Position numbers and translations under genes: made by a program. This document shows, piece by piece, positions 2,647 to 51,035 of a stretch of DNA of 64,000 nucleotides. The stretch comes from Rikenellaceae bacterium. GTDB lineage: Bacteria; Bacteroidota; Bacteroidia; Bacteroidales; Rikenellaceae. The notes under the pieces are model-generated. The model was not told the DNA's origin and searched no databases. It saw only the letters and a program-made list of their open reading frames with translations. Location of the stretch: the NCBI GenBank assembly GCA_015059865.1, contig SUZP01000005.1, forward strand, positions 1-64,000, read 5' to 3'. Numbering within the stretch: the first letter of the stretch is position 1; every line of letters begins with the position of its first letter.

Positions 2647-2678
2647 GGGAGTGTCTAACAAGTTGTTTAGACACTCCC
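2647..2678 (-). terminator. Terminator hairpin with GTGTCTAACAA-type apex
   Basis: GGGAGTGTCTAACAagttgTTTAGACACTCCC. Confidence 0.65.
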
Positions 2679-2687
2679 ATTTTGCTC

Positions 2688-2807
2688 GAAGTTGTATAAC
2701 AAGAGGGATTTCAAGGCTTGCGAAGTGTGAGAAACCGCAGCATACTTGGCGTATGTGAGGATTTCGAACACGAGTATAACGCAGAAATCACCTTGTTAGA
2801 CAGCTTC
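2688..2807 (-). repeat. Long inverted-repeat 3' element A (CGCAGCATA core family)
   Basis: Arms GAAGTTGTATAACAAGAGGGATTTC / GAAATCACCTTGTTAGACAGCTTC; apex AAACCGCAGCATACTTGGCGTATGTGAGGATTT. Confidence 0.8.
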
Positions 2808-24403: not shown

Positions 24404-24607
24404 CCAAATAGTAAAATTGATTTTAAGTAGATGAGAGCAAGGCGCACAAGAAGCCCACTGCGCAGCATAATTTCCAAATAGTAAAATTGATTTTAAGGAG
24501 GCAAATACAAGGCGCACAAGAAACCCACTGCGCAGCATAGTAAACCTATGTGAGCAAGTGGGTTATCGCAGTGCAACGCAGTAGTTGCCCCTTAAAATCG
24601 ATTTTTA
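24404..24607 (-). repeat. Long inverted-repeat 3' element B with duplicated left half
   Basis: Arms 24482-24504 / 24585-24607; inner AACCCACT/AGTGGGTT; core GCGCAGCATAGTAAACCTATGTGAGC; left half duplicated with 70-bp period. Confidence 0.85.
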
Positions 24608-34570: not shown

Positions 34571-34699
34571 AAAAAATCAGAGGTGATTGAGCTATTTTTG
34601 AGGCAAACAAGAAGCGGAGTCCGCAGCATACTTGTCGTATGTGAGGAACTCCGCTATCGCTGAGCGACTCAAAAAGAGCCAATCAGAATGATTTTTTTA
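34571..34699 (-). repeat. Long inverted-repeat 3' element C
   Basis: Arms TGATTGAGCTATTTTTGAG / CTCAAAAAGAGCCAATCA; core CGGAGTCCGCAGCATACTTGTCGTATGTGAGGAACTCCG. Confidence 0.85.
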
Positions 34700-36616: not shown

Positions 36617-36844
36617 AGTTGTAATTTTTTTATTTGTTTATTAAATTTTGTTCTGTTTTGTTTTCGCTTTTTTGTAGAGCAAACCCCTTGCCAAAGCCGT
36701 TTTTCGTGAAAATTTGTAAAATATCTGCCAAAAATGAGGTTTCGCGCGACAAATATGTGACAAAATGGCAGTATTATTGAGAATTGACAGTTGACAATTG
36801 ACAATTGACAATTATTCTTTGGCTTTTAGCCATTAACCATTGGC

Positions 36845-37169
36845 TGCATTTGCCCACAAAAAAATCAGAGATGATTGAGGGAATTTTGCGCCAAACAAAA
36901 AAAACGAGTCAGCAGCATACTGCACAGCTACTAAAATTGGAATTTAAGCAGATGGTTGCATTTGCCCACAAAAAAATCAGAGATGATTGAGGGAATTTTG
37001 CGCCAAACAAAAAAACGAGTCAGCAGCATACTGCACAGCTACTAAAATTGGAATTTAAGCAGATGGTTGCAAGGCAAACAAGGAGCCGAGTGCGCAGCAT
37101 ACTAAGGCGTATGTGAGCAACTCGGCTACCGAAGTTTAACGCAGCAAACGCTGCTTAAAAACAATTTTA
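36845..37169 (-). repeat. Long inverted-repeat 3' element D with duplicated left half
   Basis: Arms 37043-37062 / 37151-37169; AGCCGAGT/ACTCGGCT; core GCGCAGCATACTAAGGCGTATGTGAGC; preceding tandem copies with 111-112 bp period. Confidence 0.85.
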
Positions 37170-48901: not shown

Positions 48902-49073
48902 AAATTCACTTCGTTCAAATTGACAATTGACAATTGAGAATTGACCTTCGGTCTTCACTGCTCCGCCTCGGCAAAGTCTGCAAGCAATCTCTGCTCTCGG
49001 CTCAATCGCAGCGGTGACAATTAAAGGAATTTTAAATTCTTTTTTCTTTTTTTTACTTCTCCCGAAAAATAGG

Positions 49074-49184
49074 AGTTGATTAGGCTATTTTTTTGCCAAG
49101 CAAGGCGACAAATCCGCAGCATAGTCGACCTATGTGAGGAATTTGGCGACCGCAGGTTGGTGAAAAAAGAGTCAATCAAAACTA
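49074..49184 (-). repeat. Long inverted-repeat 3' element E
   Basis: Arms AGTTGATTAGGCTATTTTTTTGCCAA / TTGGTGAAAAAAGAGTCAATCAAAACT; core AAATCCGCAGCATAGTCGACCTATGTGAGGAATTT. Confidence 0.85.
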
Positions 49185-51035
49185 TTTTTCTATCTTGTCC
49201 TCCTCGATGCGCAAGTTACCCACAATAAACTGCTGGCGGTCGTAGGTATTCTTACCCATGTAGAAGGTCAGCATATCCATAATCGGGTCATCTTTGGTCA
49301 GGCGCACCTTGTCAAGGCGTATCTGCTCGCCGATAAAGCCCTCGAACTCATCGGGCGAAATCTCTCCCAAACCTTTAAATCGGGTAATCTCTGCCGTTGC
49401 TCCGCACTTCTCAATTGCTGCAACGCGCTCCTCCTCCGAGTAGCAGTAGATGGTCTCTTTTTTATTACGCACACGGAAAAGTGGCGTCTGCATAATAAAC
49501 AGGTGACCACGCCTAATCAGGTCGGGGAAGAACTGCAAGAAGAAGGTCAGCAAGAGCAAGCGAATGTGCATACCATCGACATCGGCATCGGTTGCGATAA
49601 CCACCTTGTTGTAGCGGAGGTTATCCATATCCTCCTCGATATTCAACGCCGCCTGCAAGTAGTTGAACTCGTCGTTCTTGTAGACGATGGTCTTCTTCAT
49701 TCCGTAGGAGTTCAGCGGCTTACCTCTGAGCGAGAATACCGCCTGTGTCTGCGGATTACGGCTCTTGGTGATAGAGCCCGAAGCCGAGTTACCCTCCGTG
49801 AGGAATATCATCGTCTGCTCCGCCAACTCGTGCTTGTCGGTGCGATGTATCTTGCAGTCACGCAAGTTTTTATTGTTGAGCAGTGCCTTCTTTGCCGTAT
49901 CGCGAGCCTTCTTCTGAACGCCTGCAATCTCCTTGCGCTCCTTCTCGTTCTCGACAATCTTGCGCTGTATGGCCTGCGCCGTATCGGGGTTCTTGTGGAG
50001 GTAGTTGTCCAACTCAGTAGAGAGGAACTCGCCCACAAACTGACGGATTGTAGGTCCGCCGTTCCACATATCCTTCGAGCCGAGTTTAATCTTGGTCTGC
50101 GACTCGAACAACGGCTTCGACACCTTCAACGAGATAGCCGCAATAATCGAAGAGCGAATATCCGAAGGGTCGTAGTCCTTATGGTAAAACTCCTTCAAGG
50201 TCTTAACTACCGCCTCGCGGAATGCCGCCTGATGCGTACCACCCTGCGAGGTGTACTGACCATTCACAAACGAGAAGTATGTTTCGCCGTAGCCGTGTCC
50301 GTGGGTTATGACAACCTCGATATCCTCGCCCGAAAGGTGGATAGGCGGATAGCAAGGTTCCTCCGAGAGGTTGTCGTTCACCAAATCGAGCAGTCCGTTC
50401 TTCGACACATACTGCGTGCCGTTGAGCGAGATAACCAACCCCTTGTTGAGGTAGGTATAGTTGCGCAGCAGCTGCTCCACGAACTCCAAGTTGTAGTTAT
50501 ACTTGCCAAAGACCTCCTCATCTACTCGGAACTTGATGAAGGTGCCGTCTTTCTCCTTGACATTATCCTCCCACTCTTCGCCAGTCTGTATGCCCTGCGC
50601 AAAGGTTACCGAGTGTGCCTTGCCGTCACGCACCGAACGAGCCATAAACTCACTCGAAAGGTAGTTCACAGCCTTCACACCCACGCCATTCAGACCTACG
50701 GTCTTTTTGCCGTCCTCCTCGTAGTTGCTACCCGTGTTCATCACCGACACCGCAGCCGCCAATGCTCCAAGCGGAATACCACGACCGTAGTCACGCACCG
50801 ATACAACATTATCCTCGATGGTAATCTCCACACGACTACCAAAGCCATTCATAAACTCGTCTATCGAGTTGTCGGTAACCTCCTTAATCAGCACATAGAT
50901 ACCATCATCGGACATCGTGCCGTCACCGAGTTTTCCGATGTACATACCGGGGCGCAAGCGGACATGCTCACGAGGTGTGAGCGTCTTTATCGAGTCCTCA
51001 TCGTAGGTCATCGGGGTTTTGAGTAAATCTGCCAT
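49182..51035 (-). CDS. parE: Type II topoisomerase subunit B (topoisomerase IV ParE-like)
   Basis: [43 protein letters not shown]. Confidence 0.9.

Follow-up and report, generated by a model that had tools for sequence, protein, structure and literature searches.

Stop-codon-anchored palindromes in a Rikenellaceae genome as probable relatives of the ERIC family of miniature mobile elements

The window, a stretch of 64,000 nucleotides from the genome of a Rikenellaceae bacterium, a gut organism of the Alistipes type, carries five imperfect palindromes of 111–129 bp (elements A to E), which we judge to be miniature mobile elements of the ERIC type, far beyond the range accepted for ERIC. They are probably copies of a small, non-autonomous mobile DNA palindrome of ~111–130 bp belonging to the ERIC/IRU superfamily. 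ERIC has been reported from Enterobacteriaceae and Vibrionaceae and studied for ~35 years as a feature of these two groups (PMC10969869); the family described here spans Bacteroidota (including Chlorobiaceae), Desulfobacterota, Nitrospirota, Legionella and Xanthomonas.

Anatomy of the five elements

The five elements have a common apex, T-S-CTCACATAS-N5/6-STATGCTGCG-S, and all lie on the minus strand. The sequence CTCACATA occurs five times in the window, each time on the minus strand and once per element, compared with a mean of 1.5 occurrences in shuffled sequence and at least five in 1 of 100 shuffles. These sites agree with the single orientation described in the first-pass annotation, and the apex and stems that it had listed are present at all five places. 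Its description of the elements as 3′-end hairpins can be made more precise: B, C, D and E start at the upstream stop codon itself, and A lies ~25 nt downstream of the stop codon of its gene.

Element A (2688..2807, minus strand; conserved apical core at 2736..2759) has type II arms, GAAGC...CTTC, and follows the stop codon of a SASA-family gene. It is part of a longer unit that includes, at 2647..2687 on the same strand, a spacer and a second, terminator-like hairpin (GGGAGTGTC..GACACTCCC). This hairpin stands behind the first one in type II copies, moves with them and also covaries, with compensatory variants at loci L001 and L024; several other copies have the same unit. Composite type II copies at loci L012, L022 and L025 have an extra hairpin module of ~80 nt in the right arm (GAGCAAAACAAATGCTTGTTTTGC...).

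Element B (24482..24607; core at 24531..24554) starts at the stop codon of a Na/Pi cotransporter gene (24605–24607), element C (34571..34699; core at 34622..34645) at that of dnaK (34697–34699), element D (37043..37169; core at 37093..37117) at that of a GDSL lipase gene (37167–37169) and element E (49074..49184; core at 49115..49138) at the TAG of the topoisomerase IV subunit B gene (49182–49184), all on the minus strand. The palindrome of E reaches a few bases further on both sides, to approximately 49066–49188. Right-half remnants of older copies stand behind B, C and D; the remnant behind B occupies 24411..24475 (limits approximate), and those behind D lie within tandem repeats at 36800..37042, both on the minus strand. 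The tandem repeats are direct, with a unit of ~111 bp. RNA folding z-scores against dinucleotide shuffles are −4.8 (A), −8.9 (B), −8.9 (C), −6.4 (D) and −2.3 (E), that of E being weaker.

From the outside inward, an element has an outer arm that varies, in many types a mid-arm motif (TGCGTT on the left, GCCTTG on the right), a variable stem and the apical part. There, an unpaired T and an S–S pair precede the pairing of CTCA with CTSCG, which is interrupted by a mismatch and a bulged C and is followed by a 5-bp stem and a loop of 5–6 nt. Several arm types occur side by side in a single genome. A variant apex lacking CTCA, GATGG-T[TC]ACATAC..GTATGC[GT]C-CCATC, was seen at comparable sites at three loci (L241, L251 and L223) and on the genome's own contig C17.

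Insertion at stop codons

New copies have been acquired at stop codons, and their orientation there is fixed. A co-directional stop codon is present within 300 nt upstream of 118 copies and lies 40–62 nt before the core in 86 of them, compared with 5 of 104 in the convergent-side control. Outside Rikenellaceae, 11 of 18 copies are anchored in the same way; several copies in Chlorobiaceae also are, and a copy on a Xanthomonas plasmid is anchored at proC. Comparison of sites with relatives showed that the native C terminus of the upstream gene is mostly unchanged, and that some insertions replace the last codons of the gene and bring their own stop. In two Chlorobiaceae genomes (loci L290 and L324) the last codons of the gene come from the left arm of the element, and a synonymous GAT/GAC difference there has its counterpart in the right arm. 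The idea, suggested by L290, that arms are copied from the host flank was rejected: element-free orthologues are without that coding tail, which must therefore have come with the element.

The right flank is TA in 14 of 48 stop-anchored copies against a background of 6%, the palindrome itself confounding the recognition of a TA duplication, and some Chlorobiaceae copies suggest duplications of 4–5 bp instead. TA preference alone does not account for the precise targeting of stop codons.

Copy number and mobility

The genome that carries the window (G000; 1.72 Mb, 86.5% complete, examined as stretches around matches) has ~59 copies by matches to a covariance model of the window type (R1), and 62 sites with the pattern STATGTGAGS against 14 for a reversed-pattern control. 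Relatives that carry a name in the scan of the collection are for the most part Alistipes or Rikenellaceae assemblies from herbivore guts. Of 61 genomes of the same genus, 44 contain 1–82 copies and 17 none. The element has spread recently, as seen in a group of near-identical type II copies, each with unique flanks.

At several of 17 sites compared with four relatives, one species has the element and another lacks it; at several, different and unrelated arm types occupy a shared stop codon. At the L047 gene, the site is filled in G000 and G057 and empty in G056 and G005. At dnaK, element C is present in G000 and absent from the related genomes examined, including G056, whose DnaK is 99.5% identical; relatives without the element have a native terminator at this site, which is missing where C sits. 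In G057, the orthologue of the GDSL lipase gene bears a type II element at the stop codon where G000 has D. The right half of an older copy is left behind the newer one at such stop codons: newer copies displace older ones. The element is thus mobile, given the range of 0–82 copies among relatives, the filled and empty sites and the occupation of a single stop codon by unrelated arm types.

At two loci (L026 and L200) the element and the downstream sequence are nearly identical between G000 and G056 and the upstream gene is only ~84% identical, a pattern that suggests recent transfer or recombination. No copy of the element was found in the viral contigs searched, and no match to the window copy in plasmids or to the Xanthomonas sacchari copy in phages.

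Covariation and its molecular level

Covariation is strong on three helices. In an alignment of 53 diverse copies (A2; 17 pairs, three columns, 23–25, having been pre-selected as paired), 93% of positions are paired and the covariation score is 0.518, compared with 0.121 after shuffling. In an alignment of 47 full-length type I copies (A3; 46 pairs), the score is 0.375 against 0.148, and 30 pairs changed on both sides. Slid controls gave 0.128 or less (0.122 or less for A3). The inner stem occurs as CATAC/GTATG, as TTTAC/GTAAA and, in Chlorobiaceae, as CGTAC/GTACG. At the lysA site of three Chlorobiaceae genomes, the arms change jointly, reading TTCGTTAACC/GGTTAATGAA (G127), TTCGCTAACC/GGTTAGCGAA (G215) and TTAGATAACC/GGTTATCGAA (G183). 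The first-pass claims that the stems of A to E differ yet remain complementary, and that the apical core itself covaries, are thereby borne out, the listed stems having been found, covariation exceeding that of shuffles and inner-stem pairs changing jointly.

An unlikely explanation for these patterns is that the elements are structured RNAs at mRNA 3′ ends, acting as terminators, stabilisers or processing elements, with the fold kept by selection on the transcript. Strong covariation, the single strand relative to the gene, the fixed distance from the stop codon and the absence of the native dnaK terminator at element C all fit this explanation. So does the Rfam family sX9 (RF02228, Xanthomonas), which is described as an sRNA and whose alignment takes in the apical stem plus the right arm at 13 of 20 Chlorobiaceae loci, its best score of 35.6 bits lying below the gathering cut-off of 44 bits. 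sX9 has no match in the window or the Alistipes loci, and a search of 12 genomes with RF02228 found nothing; the Rfam search proposed in the first-pass annotation likewise returned no family at gathering in the window.

Against transcript selection stands the composition of the non-Watson–Crick pairs, which in four groups comprise 106 G.T and 130 A.C, alignment noise adding equally to both. Selection on a sense RNA should favour G.U, and because no such excess is seen, complementarity looks DNA-level and strand-symmetric. A control on 9 tRNAs gave 5 G.T and 0 A.C, a sample too small for a firm control. Many lineages also have no U-tract after the stem. Of the GC-rich stem with a following U-tract that marks an intrinsic terminator, a terminal TTTT is seen in copies of types I and III and is missing from those of type II, of Legionella and of Desulfobacterota. 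The gains, losses and displacements of copies that separate sister species, at many unrelated genes, likewise argue against a conserved transcript structure. The complementarity of the arms would then have a strand-symmetric cause at the level of DNA, and a DNA hairpin, or arm-to-arm templated DNA correction, fits the compensatory changes better than RNA selection. Of the earlier proposal of selection on a folded nucleic acid, covariation beyond shuffling stands and selection for an RNA fold is not supported, G.T being no more frequent than A.C. The missing G.U excess shows that strong covariation need not imply RNA function.

Relationship to ERIC

The ERIC consensus prompted the comparison; the ERIC core used for it is present in 5,410 of 5,426 Escherichia coli genomes. 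When the loci searched are ranked by a covariance model trained solely on copies from outside the enterobacteria (R2), the E. coli ERIC copies at ybhI, pgk and narK take the top three places (E = 0.0007, 0.0038 and 0.0046), with moderate scores of 19.7–23.6 bits and E-values from a short calibration. A fourth E. coli locus (L350) reaches only 9.5 bits, and the window-type model R1 gives no significant match to ERIC (6 bits, E above 1). The motif order GCGTT / TCA-stem-CTSC / GCCTT is common to the elements and ERIC and has 0 matches in 40 Mb of random sequence, for a pattern loosened from CTCA to TCA after inspection of ERIC. The ERIC copies at ybhI and narK lie directly past the stop codon and on the strand seen in Alistipes; that at pgk has the opposite orientation. 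The core of the elements thus appears homologous to E. coli ERIC, with moderate support from sequence. The first-pass annotation had named a match to a known REP, MITE or terminator family as a finding that would refute its reading, and the match with the MITE family ERIC/IRU is such a finding.

That the elements instead form an independent MITE family of similar design, their common motifs being convergence on a good hairpin, seems improbable to us. The failure of R1 to find ERIC, the modest R2 scores on ERIC and the unrelated arm sequences are what such convergence would predict. It would leave unexplained that R2 places three ERIC sites first, that three separate motifs recur in one order and strand, and that the stop-codon register is shared at ybhI and narK.

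Distribution beyond Rikenellaceae

The exact apex was found, among the matches listed, in Legionella, a Rickettsia endosymbiont, Desulfobacterales, Nitrospirota, Magnetococcales, Mariprofundus and others; the matches listed from other phyla have the same architecture and unrelated arms. A search of 300 genomes of the phylum yielded matches in 37, mostly of one family, which we take to be Chlorobiaceae. Model R2 detects 45 copies in the Desulfobacterales genome of CP070768 and 24 in a Pseudobacteriovorax genome. Four copies in Legionella and a relative (L062, L063, L067 and L074) have wholly different long arms, almost perfectly complementary, around a shared core.

Search for a mobilising enzyme

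We know of no mobilising enzyme for ERIC. Among 811 open reading frames of 119 loci, called by length without a gene finder, there was no recurrent neighbour gene, transposase or other. Pairs of type II ends at the spacing of an insertion sequence were absent; the only pairs lie ~105–185 bp apart and mostly involve right-end remnants. The absence of a transposase is weak evidence, because G000 is incomplete and its relatives are mostly metagenome assemblies.

A retro-mobile hairpin, copied through the mRNA by a reverse transcriptase and inserted at stop codons, would explain both anchoring and strand; we consider it very improbable, RVT_1 having gone undetected in the high-copy genomes G000, G056, G001, G005 and G035. 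Least credible of all is an origin as REP/BIME palindromes with a RAYT (Y1) transposase as their mobiliser, these too being small intergenic palindromes at high copy number: Y1_Tnp (PF01797) is absent from all 61 genomes of the genus, 44 of which carry the element, the element is 3–5 times the length of a REP and no transposase recurs beside it, so that this origin is refuted for the genus on Pfam evidence, barring a diverged RAYT outside Pfam.

A model of insertion and maintenance

For a mobile palindrome of the ERIC/IRU superfamily, insertion would be catalysed by a putative trans-acting transposase at TA sites, with duplication of the TA. Landing on the TA of TAA or TAG would rebuild the stop codon, since the element begins with A or G, and transcription of the upstream gene would then include the element as a hairpin at the 3′ end of the mRNA. 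Complementarity of the arms may be maintained at the DNA level, either because the mobility machinery uses a hairpin or cruciform or through arm-templated correction during replication. By analogy with Yersinia ERIC, insertion might cause the upstream transcript to be processed in a way that depends on orientation. Copies that spread recently and sister species that lack the element make it feasible to search for the mobiliser by gene presence and absence.

A broader and more tentative possibility is that ERIC, sX9 and the present elements form one ancient multi-phylum family, in which stop-codon targeting is coupled to translation termination or the transcript 3′ end and DNA templating rewrites both arms in complementary fashion, with unrelated arms arising again and again around an invariant core. 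A family of the span described here would itself recast sX9, a widely annotated sRNA family, as one half of a mobile element.

Comparison with known systems

REP/BIME sequences are also intergenic palindromes, but a REP is 20–40 bp long with GTAG/CGTC tags (PMC3733652) and is accompanied by a RAYT gene, and the elements described here have neither. Correia/NEMIS, RUP, RPE and other bacterial MITEs are likewise small, non-autonomous and palindromic, often with TA at their termini (PMC2229807), whereas no common core was found and, according to that review, they do not stand at stop codons as a rule. sX9 corresponds to the right half of Chlorobiaceae copies, and the copy on the X. sacchari plasmid starts at the proC stop codon; the Rfam model, however, is confined to the right half, carries an sRNA description and does not match Alistipes copies.

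Work by De Gregorio in 2005 reportedly found Yersinia ERIC copies close to stop codons, with one orientation preferred. The published traits of ERIC are those of a MITE with terminal inverted repeats (TIR), TA at the termini and orientation-dependent destabilisation of upstream mRNA (PMC2229807, PMC2759123), and in Yersinia the copies are co-transcribed and exert an orientation-dependent RNase E effect on upstream mRNA (PMC2229807, PMC10969869). ERIC/IRU/RU-1 is a near-complete imperfect palindrome of ~127 bp that encodes no protein, comparable to the 111–129 bp of the present elements, and has in common with them the motif order TGCGTT, TCA-stem-loop-stem-CTSC, GCCTT, TA at the termini of some copies and, at ybhI and narK, placement directly past stop codons on the matching strand. 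The present elements differ in occurring in other phyla and in their apical stem and arms, which vary widely within one genome; stop-codon anchoring is their rule, whereas it is one of several placements for ERIC, and some of their lineages may duplicate 4–5 bp rather than TA.
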